Source of the DNA: Candidatus Sulfotelmatobacter sp.
GTDB taxonomy: Bacteria > Acidobacteriota > Terriglobia > Terriglobales > Acidobacteriaceae
Assembly: GCA_017883425.1 (NCBI GenBank)
Contig: JADGNP010000002.1
Span: 1 to 53,207, forward strand
DNA length: 53,207 bases
Reading direction: 5' to 3'
Within the stretch, counting starts at the first letter, position 1; each line of letters opens with the position of its first letter. Shown piece by piece: positions 6,552-32,013 of this stretch. The notes below the pieces were generated by a model that made no database searches, was not told the origin of the DNA, and saw nothing but the letters and a program-made list of their open reading frames with translations. The translations under genes and the position numbers were made by a program.

Positions 6552-6640
6552 GATTGTTGATTGATGATTTTCGATTGTTGATTGAAAACCAAAGTTTGTT
6601 AGGTATTCAATCAACAATCAACAATCAGAAATCATCAATC
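6552..6640. repeat. AT-rich inverted word repeat filling the queC-queE gap
   Basis: The left arm (6552-6584) is built of GATTGTTGATT-like words. The right arm (6608-6640) is its near reverse complement, with 24 of 26 positions matching from 6558. The 23-bp spacer holds no gene. The repeat begins 7 bp from the queC start codon and ends 6 bp from the queE stop codon, so it occupies almost the whole gap. It resembles an empty version of the IVP elements at 7337-7782 and 31514-31993. Confidence 0.75.
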
Positions 6641-6646
6641 GCTTCC

Positions 6647-7330
6647 CTAAACTCCCTTTACCGCCGGGTCCCAGATGAACTTGTGCACCTGCAGGCCGAG
6701 CCTGGCGGGAACATTGTCGGCGATCATCCACTCGGCCAGTTCCTGGGGATCGAGCAGGCAGTGCGAGCTGTCGCGGGCCCCGGTCGCGTCTTTGCGGAAT
6801 GCGGGGGAAAACAGAACAGCGTTCACCCGCTCGGCAAGATGGTGCCGGTGGGTAAACTCCCGGGCGAAGTCGTAGTCGGCGCGGCTGCTCAGGACGAACT
6901 TGATTTCATCGTGAGGAGACAGAGTCTCCAGATTCTCCATGCAAAACGTGCCGCCCTCGCCCGAGTTCGGACACTTCACATCGACGATCTTAATGACCCT
7001 GGCCGGAACCCGCTCCAGCGGGCGCTCTCCGCTGGTCTCGAGCAGGACCTTGTAACCGTCATCGAGGAGATGCTGCATCAGGAGCACGACTTCCCGCTCC
7101 TGCAGCATGGGCTCGCCGCCGGTGATCTCGACCAGGCCGCCATCGGGACTGAGGCGCGAGACCTCGTCGAGGACCTCTTCGACCGCCATTTTGTGGCCAC
7201 CCTGGAAGGTGTACTCGCTGTCGCACCACGAACAACGCAGATTGCATCCCGTCAAGCGCACGAAGACACAGGGCAGGCCCGCATGGGTCGACTCGCCCTG
7301 CAGCGATTTGTAGATTTCGGTAACTTGCAT
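6647..7330 (-). CDS. queE: 7-carboxy-7-deazaguanine synthase QueE
   Basis: Radical SAM enzyme that contracts the ring of 6-carboxy-tetrahydropterin to 7-carboxy-7-deazaguanine. The 227-residue protein has the CxxxCxxC iron-sulfur motif at C29, C33 and C36 (GCNLRCSWC) and the substrate motif MQVTEIYKSLQGES at the N-terminus. ITGGEPMLQ is the SAM-binding GGE motif. The ATG at 7328-7330 fits the family. Its upstream sequence is the end of an IVP element 6 bp away, and no Shine-Dalgarno is visible, so translation may depend on the element or on coupling. Confidence 0.93.
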   Translation of the reverse strand: MQVTEIYKSLQGESTHAGLPCVFVRLTGCNLRCSWCDSEYTFQGGHKMAVEEVLDEVSRLSPDGGLVEITGGEPMLQEREVVLLMQHLLDDGYKVLLETSGERPLERVPARVIKIVDVKCPNSGEGGTFCMENLETLSPHDEIKFVLSSRADYDFAREFTHRHHLAERVNAVLFSPAFRKDATGARDSSHCLLDPQELAEWMIADNVPARLGLQVHKFIWDPAVKGV

Positions 7331-7336
7331 GGAAAA

Positions 7337-7782
7337 CAGTTGCCAGCCGCCGGTTGCCAGTTGCCAGTTTCAGGGGCCCGCTTGTTTCGACACCGATGCC
7401 AAGAGTCCGTTGAGGATACGGCCAACCTCGGCGCACGCCTCCAATAGCCTATTTGTTAGGTTCCTTTTGCAAATAGCCGAGATTGTCGGAAATCTGGAGT
7501 TGAGTTTCGACTTCCATTTAAAGAACCCCTTGCCTGTCCGAGAAAATATCGAAACTCCTTTTCAGAAAGTCTGCCCTGACCTTCAGCAATGTTGCTCGGA
7601 ATGGAAACCGCAGCACGGCGAAGCTGCGAGGTGATCCCGAATAGTTCATCTTTCGGGAAAGTCGCAGTAACTCGATAGATCGTAGTCACAAGTTCCATCG
7701 ACTTCTGCCACGCAACGAGATCTTTATACGATCGTCCCAACCGTTGATCCCTCTTGGTGCTGCCACTGGCGGCTGGCAACTG
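7337..7782 (-). mobile_element. IVP-bearing inverted-repeat element, copy 1 (degenerate)
   Basis: A 446-bp unit bounded by the perfect 15-bp inverted repeat CAGTTGCCAGCCGCC (7337-7351) and its complement (7768-7782). Next to the left arm the same word repeats in tandem (TTGCCAG units, 7352-7370). Between the arms lies a frameshifted IVP gene. The unit starts 6 bp from the queE start codon and ends 2 bp from the queD stop codon. The layout is that of 23S rRNA intervening sequences, but it sits in a biosynthetic operon. No target duplication or transposase is visible. Confidence 0.7.
7370..7740 (-). pseudogene. Frameshifted four-helix-bundle (IVP/S23-like) gene
   Basis: Four-helix-bundle proteins of this family (TIGR02436) were first seen as ORFs inside 23S rRNA intervening sequences. 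From a TTG at 7738-7740, preceded by AAGAGGG, the frame reads the family N-terminus (SYKDLVAWQKSMELV), the core RRAAVSIPSNIAEGQGR and FLGQARGSL. One extra base after GGTTCTTTA shifts the conserved continuation MEVETQLQISDNLGYLQK into the next frame. A second +1 shift then leads to LLEACAEVGRILNGLLASVS and a stop at 7370-7372. All three pieces together give a full-length protein. This is a decaying gene or contains sequencing errors. Confidence 0.85.
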
Positions 7783-7784
7783 GG

Positions 7785-8162
7785 CTAGTCGCTGTATTTC
7801 GCGGTCGTCGTGTCGGTCTCGAAGACGGTTACGTCCTTCACGCGCACCCGGCCGTTGGTCACGGTTTGCAGCTTGGTGTTCGACTCGTCGTAGAAATACT
7901 TTGCCAGGTTCTCGGCCGAGGGATTGATCACGGTGAACGGCTCAATCTCGTTGATCATCTGGTGGTCGAGGCGCTCGATGACTTGCTTCATGACTTCGCG
8001 CAGGTCTTTGAAGTCGAGCAGAAGGCCGGCCTTGTCCAATTCCGCTCCGGCCAGCGTCACCCGGATCTTGTAGTTATGGCCGTGCGGATTCTCGCACTTG
8101 CCCTTGTAGTTGCGCAGGTAGTGCCCTGCGGCAAAGGTGTCTTCGACGGTGACTTCGAACAT
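7785..8162 (-). CDS. queD: 6-carboxy-5,6,7,8-tetrahydropterin synthase QueD
   Basis: QueD converts dihydroneopterin triphosphate to 6-carboxy-tetrahydropterin, the step before QueE. The 125-residue protein carries the zinc ligands H14 (FAAGH), H27 and H29 (NPHGHN), the catalytic C23, and the LDHQMIN block. The ATG at 8160-8162 has GGGGGAT upstream and gives the normal family length; the longest frame adds 19 unlikely residues. It is the first que gene of the minus-strand set. No folE is in the window. Confidence 0.94.
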   Translation of the reverse strand: MFEVTVEDTFAAGHYLRNYKGKCENPHGHNYKIRVTLAGAELDKAGLLLDFKDLREVMKQVIERLDHQMINEIEPFTVINPSAENLAKYFYDESNTKLQTVTNGRVRVKDVTVFETDTTTAKYSD

Positions 8163-8224
8163 GATCCCCCAGCAGCCCGGGCGTGAATACAGGGCGGGCT
8201 GCGCTCCATGGCGAAACATCCATT

Positions 8225-27219: not shown

Positions 27220-27359
27220 TTCAAGCCAAAAGCTTGAACCACAGAGGACACTGAGGAGCACAAAGGCTGCCGAGCTTTGCTCGGCCGGACAGCCGAAGGC
27301 GGTTGTCTCCAGAGGGTTTGAGGTGGGGTTAATCTAAAAGCTAAAAGCTAAGAGCTAAG
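27220..27359. repeat. Mosaic of five repeat types between purL and purF
   Basis: The gap holds, in order: palindrome TTCAAGC-caaaa-GCTTGAA (27220-27238), an ACAGAGGACACTGAGG word run (about 27236-27265), hairpin CCGAGC-ttt-GCTCGG (27270-27284), a diverged half copy of the GGACAGCCG element (27287-27310) and a tandem CTAAAAG word run (27334-27359). purF begins 14 bp later. No ORF is seen. Confidence 0.75.
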
Positions 27360-27372
27360 GGCCAGGAGCGAA

Positions 27373-28921: not shown

Positions 28922-29851
28922 TCATTGGTGAGTGAAGGCAGTCGGCTTTCGCGCCTGCGCGACGCGTGGGATGGACTGCAGGTCAGCGATGATGCGAACG
29001 TCGTCCCAGGCTTTCAGAAGTTCGCCGACCGATCCGGCAATGGTGCCGCTGATTTCCAGGACGAGCCATCCGCCGGGGCGCAGCGCTGCGTGAGCCTGCG
29101 GAAGCAGACGGGCAATGACCTCGACTCCTGTTGGTCCGGCAAACACAGCGTTGCGCGGCTCAAATTTGCGGACCTCCAGTTGAACCTGATCTTCTTCGGA
29201 TTCGCCGACGTACGGCGGGTTCGAGACGATGAAATCCAGGCCGGTGACGTTGAGGCCTTCCAGCAGGTCCGCTTGATGGAACTGGATGCGGTGCTCGAAC
29301 TGATGGCGAGCGGCGTTGGCGCGGGCGATTTCGAGCGCCGCAACAGATATGTCGGTGGCGTGGATTTCGGCGTGAGGAAATTCTTTGGCTAGCGCCAGGG
29401 CAATGCAGCCTGAGCCGGTACCAACGTCGAGAATGCGGAGGACCCCAGGCGTCGGACCTCGGCCCTCGGCCCTCGGCCCGGGAGTGGCGGCTTCTAAGGC
29501 CGAGGTCTGAGGTCTGAGGTCCGAGGTCCGCAGTTCGAGCACGGTTTCGATTACGTGTTCAGTCTCGGGGCGCGGAATGAGGACCGCGGGGGTAACGATC
29601 AGGTCCATGCCCCAGAATTCCTGATGTCCGGTGATGTACTGCGCCGGCACCCCGCGGGCGCGTTCGGCGAGAGCAGATTCATAGCGAGTTTGCTCGTCCG
29701 ATGTGAGTTCGCGCTCGGGATGCGCGAAGAGGTAGGCTCGGTCACAGTTGAGCGTGAACATAAGAAGCAACTCGGCGTTCAACCGCGGGGAGGGAACGTG
29801 GTCTGCGGTGAGGCGGGTGATGGCGGAGGTGAGAGCTTCGCGGAGGTGCAT
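28922..29851 (-). CDS. prmC: Peptide chain release factor N5-glutamine methyltransferase PrmC
   Basis: PrmC methylates the Gln of the GGQ motif in release factors. The 309-residue protein has an N-terminal helical domain, the family block PAQYITGHQEFWG and VLIPRPETEHVIE, the SAM motif RILDVGTGSGC and catalytic NPPY. Between ETVLEL and LRILDVG lies an extra stretch of about 26 residues encoded by an inverted GGTCTGAGG-type repeat, inserted in frame. I use the ATG at 29849-29851; a GTG 15 bp upstream is possible. prfA, whose product is the substrate, lies nearby on the same strand, a common pairing. Confidence 0.93.
   Translation of the reverse strand: MHLREALTSAITRLTADHVPSPRLNAELLLMFTLNCDRAYLFAHPERELTSDEQTRYESALAERARGVPAQYITGHQEFWGMDLIVTPAVLIPRPETEHVIETVLELRTSDLRPQTSALEAATPGPRAEGRGPTPGVLRILDVGTGSGCIALALAKEFPHAEIHATDISVAALEIARANAARHQFEHRIQFHQADLLEGLNVTGLDFIVSNPPYVGESEEDQVQLEVRKFEPRNAVFAGPTGVEVIARLLPQAHAALRPGGWLVLEISGTIAGSVGELLKAWDDVRIIADLQSIPRVAQARKPTAFTHQ
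29453..29530. repeat. In-frame inverted word repeat inside prmC
   Basis: The left arm (29453-29478, CGGACCTCGGCCCTCGGCC-type words) is complementary to the right arm (29498-29530, tandem GAGGTCTGAGGTCTGAGGTC words). The repeat spans exactly 78 bp, 26 codons, so prmC stays open. It codes for a linker rich in Arg, Pro, Thr, Ala and Gly before the SAM-binding motif. Confidence 0.85.
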
Positions 29852-30433: not shown

Positions 30434-31513
30434 CTAAACCAGGCTCGTAGCTTCCTGCCTCAGCTTTTCTGCCTGGTAGTAGGTCGTGAGCGCCTCGATG
30501 AGCGGCTGCAGTTTGCCGTCCATGACCGCTTCGAGCTGGTGGATGGTGAATCCGATGCGATGATCGGTGAGCCGGTTCTGCGGGAAGTTGTAGGTGCGGA
30601 TTTTCTCGCTGCGGTCGCCGGATCCCACCATGGCCTTGCGTTCCTTGGCCAGGGCCTGCTGCTGCTTCTCCATTTCGATTTCGTAGAGACGGGAGCGCAG
30701 CACGCGCATGCCTTTTTCGCGATTCTTGATCTGGGATTTTTCGTCCTGGCAACTGACGACCGTGTTGGTTGGGATATGCGTGATGCGGACGGCGGAGTAA
30801 GTGGTGTTCACGGATTGGCCGCCGGGGCCGGAGGAGCAGAACGTATCGATGCGCAGGTCTTTGGCTTCGATCTTGATGTCAACGTCTTCGGCTTCGGGCA
30901 GCACCGCGACCGTGACAGCCGAGGTGTGCACCCGTCCTTGCTGCTCGGTGGCGGGCACGCGCTGCACACGGTGAGTGCCGCTTTCGTACTTCAACTGGGA
31001 GAAGACGCGGTGGCCCTCAATGATGGCGATGACTTCCTTCAAGCCGCCGGCGGAGGATTCCGAAGACGAAAGCACTTCGACCTTCCAGCGCTGGGTTTCC
31101 GCGTAGCGGGTGTACATGCGGAAGATTTCGGCCGCAAAGAGGGTGGCCTCATCCCCGCCGGTGCCGGCACGGATTTCCAGGATGATGTTCTTTTCGTCGT
31201 TCGGATCCTTGGGCAGGAGCAGCACTTTCAACTCTTCCTCAACCGCCTTGACCCGGCCTTCCAACTGGTTGAGCTCATCCTGAGCATAGGCGCGCATGTC
31301 GGCATCTTTTTCATCGACGAGGACGGCCCTACTCTCCGCAATTCCTTTGGTCAGATCTTTGTATTCGCGGTACTTCTCGACCATGGGCGCGATTTCAGCA
31401 TGGGCCTTGGCGGTCTTCTGGTATTTCGCCGAGTCGTTGACGATATCCGGCGAGGCGAGAGCGTTGGTCAGCTCTTCGTAGCGGGCTTCGATTTGGTCGA
31501 GTCGTTCAAACAT
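30434..31513 (-). CDS. prfA: Peptide chain release factor 1 (RF1)
   Basis: RF1 reads UAA and UAG and triggers peptide release. The 359-residue protein has the codon-recognition tripeptide PAT (187-189, in RVPATE, the RF1 type) and the catalytic GGQ (231-233, [14 protein letters not shown]). Length is typical. The ATG at 31511-31513 is directly abutted by the inverted repeat of the IVP element, so its 5' leader is repeat sequence with no Shine-Dalgarno. It shares strand with prmC, its modifier. Confidence 0.95.
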
Positions 31514-31993
31514 CGTCGTTGGTCGTTCGTCGGTAGTCGTTAGCCTCTCGCCTCAAGCGGTTTTCTCGCGCAGCGAATTGATCAGGCTATTGAGACTTCT
31601 GCCTATGGCGTCTGCCGACGCCAAAATGCGCCCGGCATCTTCGCCGCTCATGTATTGTAATTCCTTCGCGATCAACAGTTGTGTTTGTGCCTCCAAGAGC
31701 GATCCTCGTGCGTGCAGGAGGAAATTCCCAAACTCACGGTCGGATCGGTGTCCCTTGCCCTCCGCAATATTGCTTGGGACCGATACCGCAGCCCGACGCA
31801 ATTGTTGGCATAAGCCGTACACCTCGTGTTTCGGAAACTGCCCCGTTACTCGATAGACTTCGACGGCAAATTTCATCGCTTCCTGCCAGACGCGCAAATC
31901 CTTAAATGATGCTGACATGTTCGACACCTCTCAAAGAGAACTGTAATGCCTGAGTTGTGAGAGGTAACGACTAACGACGAACGACTATCGACG
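31514..31993 (-). mobile_element. IVP-bearing inverted-repeat element, copy 2 (intact)
   Basis: A 480-bp unit. The left arm (31514-31551) is made of GTCGTT/CGTCGG words and is matched by the right arm (31957-31993) in about 33 of 38 positions as reverse complement. Between the arms is one intact IVP gene on the strand of the surrounding genes. The unit abuts the prfA start codon and ends 20 bp from the stop of the DUF1385 gene. The arms differ in sequence from copy 1 but share the layout. Confidence 0.75.
31553..31918 (-). CDS. Four-helix-bundle protein (23S rRNA intervening-sequence/S23 family)
   Basis: The 121-residue protein has the family pattern FKDLRVWQEAMKFAVEVYRV near the N-terminus, then RRAAVSVPSNIAEGKGHRS, FLLHARGSLLEAQTQLLIA and the final helix IGRSLNSLINSL. 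Homologues (TIGR02436) are coded in 23S rRNA intervening sequences of Leptospira and Coxiella and are close to the accessory Avd of diversity-generating retroelements; a basic bundle that binds nucleic acid is likely. GAGAGG lies 8 nt before the ATG at 31916-31918. The gene fills an inverted-repeat element. Confidence 0.9.
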   Translation of the reverse strand: MSASFKDLRVWQEAMKFAVEVYRVTGQFPKHEVYGLCQQLRRAAVSVPSNIAEGKGHRSDREFGNFLLHARGSLLEAQTQLLIAKELQYMSGEDAGRILASADAIGRSLNSLINSLREKTA

Positions 31994-32013
31994 GTTTCCC
32001 AGGATGGGATCCC

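Follow-up and report, generated by a model that had tools for sequence, protein, structure and literature searches.

A heptad-armed 23S rRNA IVP gene in the que operon of Candidatus Sulfotelmatobacter sp. and a possible mobile system of IVP genes and 7-nt words

The window analysed here, a stretch of 53,207 nucleotides of Candidatus Sulfotelmatobacter sp. (contig JADGNP010000002.1, positions 1 to 53,207), carries the genes queD, IVP, queE and queC in that order on its minus strand, the neighbours being identified by Pfam as PTPS (queD, 7785-8219, upstream), radical SAM (queE, 6647-7330, downstream; present in 59 of 61 genomes searched) and QueC. The 23S_rRNA_IVP gene (PF05635), of a small bacterial kind met chiefly in interrupted rRNA genes, lies within 7337-7782, likewise on the minus strand, and is enclosed by inverted arms of CAGTTGC-type words. 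Read on the plus strand, the arm beside queE (7337-7357) and its inverted copy beside queD (7762-7782) are 21 nt long and 90% complementary, at a spacing of 404 nt. The left arm continues as 7-nt words of the same type up to 7371 (lag-7 region, 7341-7371), abutting the IVP stop codon (7370-7372), and CAGTTGCCAG occurs four times within the window versus 0.09 times expected from shuffles. The right arm starts 2 nt beyond the queD stop and the left arm stops 6 nt short of the queE start, which bears out the remark of an earlier note on this DNA that the arms nearly touch the stop and start codons of the neighbours. The gene itself (7370-7740) has a TTG start at about 7740, and only its residues 19 to 88 are matched by PF05635 (E = 1.7e-28; profile positions 1 to 70 at 7516-7725), with a score of 99.4 bits against a curated cut-off of 33.8; the four helix bundle protein family TIGR02436 was also matched above its cut-off (91.9 versus 24 bits). 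Because the reading crosses three frames, the gene is broken in two places and is a pseudogene, so that its description as a frameshifted IVP gene between queE and queD inside inverted repeats was correct. At the gathering threshold, Rfam returned one tRNA only in the whole window, and the que IVP lies outside rRNA. On balance, the feature is probably the degraded remnant of a mobile element in which inverted arrays of 7-nt words flank an IVP gene on either side.

A second IVP element (31512-31995) adjoins a release-factor gene. Its arms are 29 nt long and 90% complementary (on the plus strand, 31514-31542, with CGTCGTT words, beside the release-factor gene, and 31965-31993 opposite), and its gene (31586-31903, minus strand; profile match, E = 1.9e-36) has no internal stop. 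The arms of the two copies had been said to share no sequence; this holds for their letters, which differ, and fails for their 7-nt period, which is common to both. Heptads without an IVP gene were also present in the window, as a hairpin of GATTGTT words in the queC-queE spacer (6552-6640; 26-nt arms, 92% complementary), a hairpin of GGACCTC words (29440-29538) and a single AGCTAAN array found by lag-7 detection, for which no clear partner was seen (27328-27369). The words of the first hairpin are of the class carried by an IVP of subfamily c in the same genome (L006). Six IVP genes were found in the source genome, five of them with inverted heptad arms and each of these with a different word (CTAGCTN, TGACTNC, CGACTAA, CAGTTGC and ATTGATG); the sixth (L004) had no inverted heptad arms by the arm score described below. 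In a check suggested by the note, arm words were seen to recur elsewhere in the genome, CAGTTGCCAGTTGCCAG having six matches in its own genome and its reversed control none.

The arm score compares the 220 nt ahead of a gene with the 220 nt that follow it, the latter taken as reverse complement. From 158 matches in 45 genomes of the genus, 115 IVP loci were chosen, weak or partial matches being mostly omitted; two lacked 100-nt flanks, and the 113 tested represent only 27 sites, one of which supplies 29 loci. Scores of at least 12 were obtained at 109 of the 113 loci (with four below this value) and of at least 16 at 95. A score of at least 16 was reached in 194 of 4520 swapped-partner comparisons, orthologous sites included, and in 0 of 1130 shuffles. 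When the window was tiled with 318-nt pseudo-genes, 10 of 541 tiles scored at least 12 and 5 at least 16, and 3 of these 5 fall on the two IVP copies. The mean best identity at lag 7 was 0.675, and that at its multiple, lag 14, was 0.666, versus 0.39 to 0.49 at lags 3 to 6, 8 to 13 and 15 and 0.427 for lag 7 in the far-flank control.

A scan of named genomes yielded 80 IVP loci (76 usable), which by their record titles come from Acidobacteria, Bacteroidetes, Firmicutes, Proteobacteria and Planctomycetes, among others, and further from Spirochaetes, Chloroflexi, Verrucomicrobia, a CPR bacterium and an archaeal MAG (L254). Scores of at least 14 were found at 61 of the 76 loci, the other 15 lying below this value, versus 93 of 2280 swapped controls. 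The best period of the 61 armed loci was 7 in 52, 8 in 5, another value in 3 and none in 1. The dinucleotide order AG>CT prevailed at 56 of 109 genus loci (reverse, 24; ties, 29) and at 45 of 61 named loci (reverse, 5; ties, 11), and a universal dinucleotide motif was rejected as too loose across both sets for a general claim. Among 15 plasmid loci (from 15 of 26 plasmid records), 13 of them cyanobacterial, 11 scored at least 14, and at least two armed plasmid loci use 8-nt words (L222 and L224). Plasmid locus L221 scored low as its flank began at the annotated end of the CDS, inside an arm, both arms being present; the low scores of L218 and L219 probably arose likewise, and L216 had no clear arms. 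IVP loci on viral contigs scored at least 14 in 24 of 30 cases, with period 7 in 23. At one of the 15 plasmid loci, from Azospirillum lipoferum 4B (L225; NC_016586.1, 13695-15430), an IVP gene with heptad arms lies inside the LSU rRNA as a classical intervening sequence (IVS). Three cyanobacterial IVP genes (L214, L215 and L217) lie between CRISPR genes (cas10 and cmr3 in one, cas6 and cas4 in two), and in Nostoc edaphicum (NZ_CP054697.1) an IVP element lies antisense between the beta and alpha genes of ribonucleotide reductase.

At the queD-queE site of sister species, IVP genes were again present, some with an open frame. By-eye scoring of heptads in 29 sister spacers gave 6 with an IVP gene or its remains (an IVP or clear IVP-derived stretch in L009, L011, L016, L025 and L034, and a remnant in L018), 10 with heptads only and 13 with neither, a distribution that rules against the arms being ancestral operon sequence, as the note had allowed they might be. 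On the QueE tree, IVP presence is scattered, with seven changes for seven IVP rows (window included). In the IVP tree, five que IVPs form a single clade, which holds four of those seven rows together with L087 (G031), a locus outside the 30 spacers. Scattered presence together with a single clade points to one old insertion and many losses; the insertion between queD and queE was thus probably a single one, older than most of the species sampled and many times lost or eroded.

Genus loci were grouped into 33 sites at first, with inverted copies kept apart, and into 27 after these had been merged; the Mantel and inversion figures below use the merged sites and the arm-likeness figures the first grouping. 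With one locus per site, arm similarity fell with distance on the IVP tree (26 sites; Mantel r = -0.45, a value reached by none of the 200 permutations in any of 50 draws). This held when subfamily c was left out (r = -0.40, 20 sites; permutation P, mean 0.0003 and maximum 0.01). Pairs from different sites at an IVP distance below 0.6 had an arm similarity of 0.69 (n = 11), versus about 0.2 for distant pairs. When arm words were read in reverse, similarity was also near 0.2 (first grouping), indicating that word polarity is kept. Site 3 is home to two IVP lineages, one with GGCTTCC words and the other with GACCTCA words, and each of them occurs in both orientations; AGTTCTC arms are common to related elements at three different sites, and a leader before the gene is common to five of the six aligned elements of that lineage (three merged sites), L062 being the one without it. 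Breaks of the rule that words go with the lineage were seen at L094/L110 (opposite polarity), L132/L135 and L134. By these comparisons, arm words evidently differ between copies and track the IVP lineage more than the site, and the arms seem to be inherited together with the gene rather than made from the site. The claim that the copies follow one plan without fixed transposon ends was upheld in that words differ between IVP lineages.

If the two arms diverged independently after insertion, an arm should match its own partner as well as it matches the opposite arm of an ortholog. The match to the own arm was higher in 893 of 1080 ordered pairs (lower in 181, equal in 6), and the mean difference was positive at 14 of 16 sites (first grouping); homogenisation was not seen at sites s05 and s12 (slightly negative) or s11 (near zero). 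The two arms of one locus thus appear, quite consistently, to be kept alike. The IVP gene was reversed between the same neighbours in 43 locus pairs at 6 of the 27 merged sites, 16 of which contain more than one locus; to judge from these alignments, the gene can evidently sit inverted between the same neighbours. Recombination between inverted arms would both produce such inversion and homogenise the arms, and independent insertion in the opposite orientation may explain some of the inverted pairs.

Filled and empty sites were compared in an operon of hypothetical genes common to ten plasmid records, eight of which, all from Nostoc, were used; L423 and L424 were excluded since they have an extra gene. 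At junction 3, an IVP element is present in L418, L420 and L426, versus a 3-nt spacer in L417, L419, L421, L422 and L425. Comparison of L426 with L425 (records also numbered L221 and L226) gave identities of 94.4% (342 nt) and 99.7% (292 nt) for the flanks of this junction. Junction 4 holds an IVP element with the word GGGAAAA in L425 alone, and is otherwise a bare TAATG stop/start overlap (L417, L419, L420 and L426) or a spacer of 2 to 3 nt (L418, L421 and L422). Junction 2, between genes 2 and 3, carries an IVP-free heptad hairpin of CAGGAGT words in L417 to L421, versus 15 to 22 nt in L422, L425 and L426. In L417 and L418 an extra hairpin is nested inside this one; the arms are similar but the middles differ, which looks like a swap of the middle. 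The arms lie within a few nucleotides of the unit ends at junctions 2 and 3, and at junction 4 there are 35 nt outside the right arm. Repeats at the insertions were ATG at junction 4 and possibly TTCTA at junction 3, where it is inseparable from the arm word; junction 2 had no clear target duplication, and duplication was not constant over junctions 2 to 4. Filled and empty sites at these gene junctions indicate that arms enter together with the inserting unit, being situated, as the aligned records have it, at or near its ends.

In the 45 genus genomes, the six carriers of the AGTTCTC lineage of IVP had 203, 159, 33, 32, 17 and 8 matches to that word, versus a median of 1 and a maximum of 52 in the 39 noncarriers (P = 4e-4, phylogeny ignored); genome G033 had 11 matches, and no IVP was found in it. 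The word GACCTCA was weakly tied to its own IVP lineage (carriers, 3, 20, 0 and 2; P = 0.01, phylogeny ignored), the highest count, 23, belonging to a noncarrier; counts of both words take in overlapping units of long arrays. One long array, of about 17 GACCTCA units (G022:C116:51394-51516), comes from a genome none of whose studied loci had an IVP of the matching lineage. Among 49 distinct AGTTCTC loci (a nonrandom sample), 10 had an array of another word within -250 to +400 nt, and 6 had both polarities by the lag-7 detector. In the pieces read by eye, an array often begins just past a stop codon or ends just ahead of a start, and its length varies, up to about 20 perfect units being present on one side. 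The middles of the IVP-free hairpins listed were unrelated by eye, and a plain MITE with a conserved middle was rejected on this ground. IVP-free arrays and hairpins with words of this kind are evidently dispersed between genes, and for one of these hairpins the aligned records include both filled and empty sites.

An alternative, which takes up the view of the earlier note, is that every site builds or selects its own arms; the IVP gene would then enter existing hairpins and adopt their words. The many IVP-free heptad arrays offer places for such entry, composite arrays with another word nearby (10 of 49 loci) are in keeping with it, and so is the nested hairpin of L417 and L418, with its two different middles at one place. 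It is countered by site 3, where two IVP lineages keep two different words in both orientations, by the fall in arm similarity with IVP distance across sites and by the leader common to AGTTCTC elements at three sites. The claim of local building or selection was not supported: words follow the IVP lineage across sites, with AGTTCTC arms at three of them, and arms enter with the unit in the plasmid pairs. The same pattern would arise if units entered arrays that already had their word, so that the alternative is only weakened by these results, and we regard it as unlikely, at roughly one chance in five.

A second alternative, that the arms are an RNA device (a processing stem or a terminator, comparable to the 23S rRNA IVS cut by RNase III) under selection in the transcript, is still less probable. 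RNase III is described as cutting the stems of classical IVSs (PMC4990558), and at the que site taken alone, arm mismatches were of the GU type in 13 cases versus 1. Were a single RNA strand under selection, GU pairs should prevail, whereas mismatches on the IVP strand, counted over all loci, were of the GU and AC types about equally often (125 versus 129 in the genus and 72 versus 81 in the named set), so that no single RNA strand appears to be conserved, and an RNA stem was rejected on this symmetry. The heptad units are very unlikely to owe their movement to the RAYT transposases of these genomes, even though RAYT genes are present in 41 of the 45 genus genomes. When 20 of 30 fetched RAYT loci were checked, 17 had REP-type inverted flanks (scores, 23.6 to 68.6) and 3 none that was clear, and lag-7 identity of at least 0.75 was found on both sides at 0 of 20 and on one side at one locus (L353); this candidate was rejected on the flanks of these 20 loci. 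With REP flanks at RAYTs and heptads at IVPs, two systems of small genes and terminal words coexist in the genus. The palindromes at RAYT loci L342 to L363 of these genomes are of several kinds. Ordinary microsatellite slippage with the IVP as a bystander, which has been proposed for heptamers (PMC4692102) and would suit the variation in array length noted above, is just as improbable, as it leaves unexplained the inverted pairs around IVP genes in many phyla, the insertion of whole units, the words tied to IVP lineage and the low rate in the tile control (only 10 of 541 window pseudo-genes scoring at least 12).

The IVP gene had a median dN/dS of 0.075 in 93 unsaturated same-site pairs, rows with stops being left out, which indicates purifying selection on the gene where it is intact. 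A catalytic domain was not found in the IVP, which was the sole Pfam match of the que ORF. The only solved relative found was 2gsc (XCC0516), a five-chain entry, and the Xanthomonas S23p is described as a homopentamer in a paper on the Coxiella IVS (PMC4990558). The IVP of the second window copy matched the Avd profile NF033474 below its cut-off (E = 3.9e-5; 23.9 bits versus 80), and that of the que copy did not match it; this subthreshold similarity is the only hint, and a weak one, of a nucleic acid partner for the IVP.

That IVP genes are carried in heptad-armed units which insert, take either orientation and bear lineage-specific words is well supported, and the best reading of the results is a mobile system of IVP and heptads, similar to that of RAYT and REP, which would work without a known catalytic enzyme. 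We infer that the words are recognised, and movement is driven, by the IVP protein itself: it would bind arrays with its own lineage's heptads and draw the array ends together, whereupon arrays would recombine at the DNA level, with insertion beside or into existing arrays or at stop/start junctions. The same recombination could invert or exchange the middle, and exchange between arrays would homogenise the arms as well. Cutting and joining of strands might be supplied by host recombination or replication or by an unrecognised activity of the IVP. More broadly, and tentatively, IVP genes and heptad arrays may form a mobile class that is widespread, being present in many phyla of bacteria and in one archaeal MAG or more. 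In this class, a small four-helix protein with no known nuclease would recognise arrays of 7-nt units word by word and spread them, with or without the gene, by exchange at the DNA level; its products would be the 23S rRNA IVSs and all the orphan heptamers described in Xanthomonas, in Nostoc and in Beggiatoa and other cyanobacteria, a proposal to which we give about one chance in three. A general link between IVP and heptads was not found in earlier reports in the open-access literature. Both the IVSs of 23S rRNA and the heptamer repeats scattered through genomes are long-standing puzzles with no agreed mechanism, the heptamer papers giving possibilities only, such as slippage or a regulatory role (PMC4692102 and PMC4679880). 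Heptad arms at IVP genes in many phyla, together with visible insertion and inversion, connect both puzzles and supply a protein that can be tested. If the proposal is true, a process resembling transposition would be linked to a protein in which no catalytic domain is known, and operons would be entered between stop and start codons by a mobile agent; insertion of IVP units between genes may account for the scattered 7-nt repeats described earlier, the cause of which was unexplained.

Among known systems, the 23S rRNA IVSs with an S23p/IVP ORF (Coxiella, Leptospira and others) resemble the que element in protein family, size and inverted-repeat ends, and complementary ends around such an ORF are present in the que element. 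The Coxiella IVS measures 428 to 444 nt and has tandem GACAGAT heptamers in variable number ahead of the S23p ORF, and IVS mobility has already been proposed there (PMC4990558); in CPR bacteria, IVP ORFs are described within rRNA insertions (PMC11270868). The que copy differs in that it is intergenic in a protein operon and in that the arms overall have no RNA-strand bias. Unlike classical IS elements and MITEs with fixed terminal inverted repeats, IVP units have words that differ between IVP lineages. Diversity-generating retroelements resemble these units in the weak profile similarity of the IVP to Avd (NF033474), but the score lies far below the cut-off, and the one ORF recognised in the element is the IVP. 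REP and RAYT co-evolve, and they resemble the IVP units in having a small gene whose terminal words are specific to its lineage and also occur in many copies without the gene, whereas IVP units end in 7-nt arrays and RAYTs in REP palindromes, and a Pfam search of the que ORF returned no Y1_Tnp (HUH) domain. Cyanobacterial STRRs are 7-nt tandem arrays in intergenic space, as are the lag-7 regions found here. Orphan heptamers have been described between genes in Nostoc (GGGGA(C/T)T) and Xanthomonas (GGGAATC), X. campestris having 70 inverted pairs (PMC4692102), and TAACTGA in Beggiatoaceae, Cyanobacteria and Bacteroidetes, mostly immediately upstream of start codons in one Beggiatoaceae genome (PMC4679880). 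The term "four helix" does not occur in these two papers, which do not name the IVP by it. These intergenic tandem heptamers resemble the arms of IVP genes, and we hypothesise that they belong to the IVP system.
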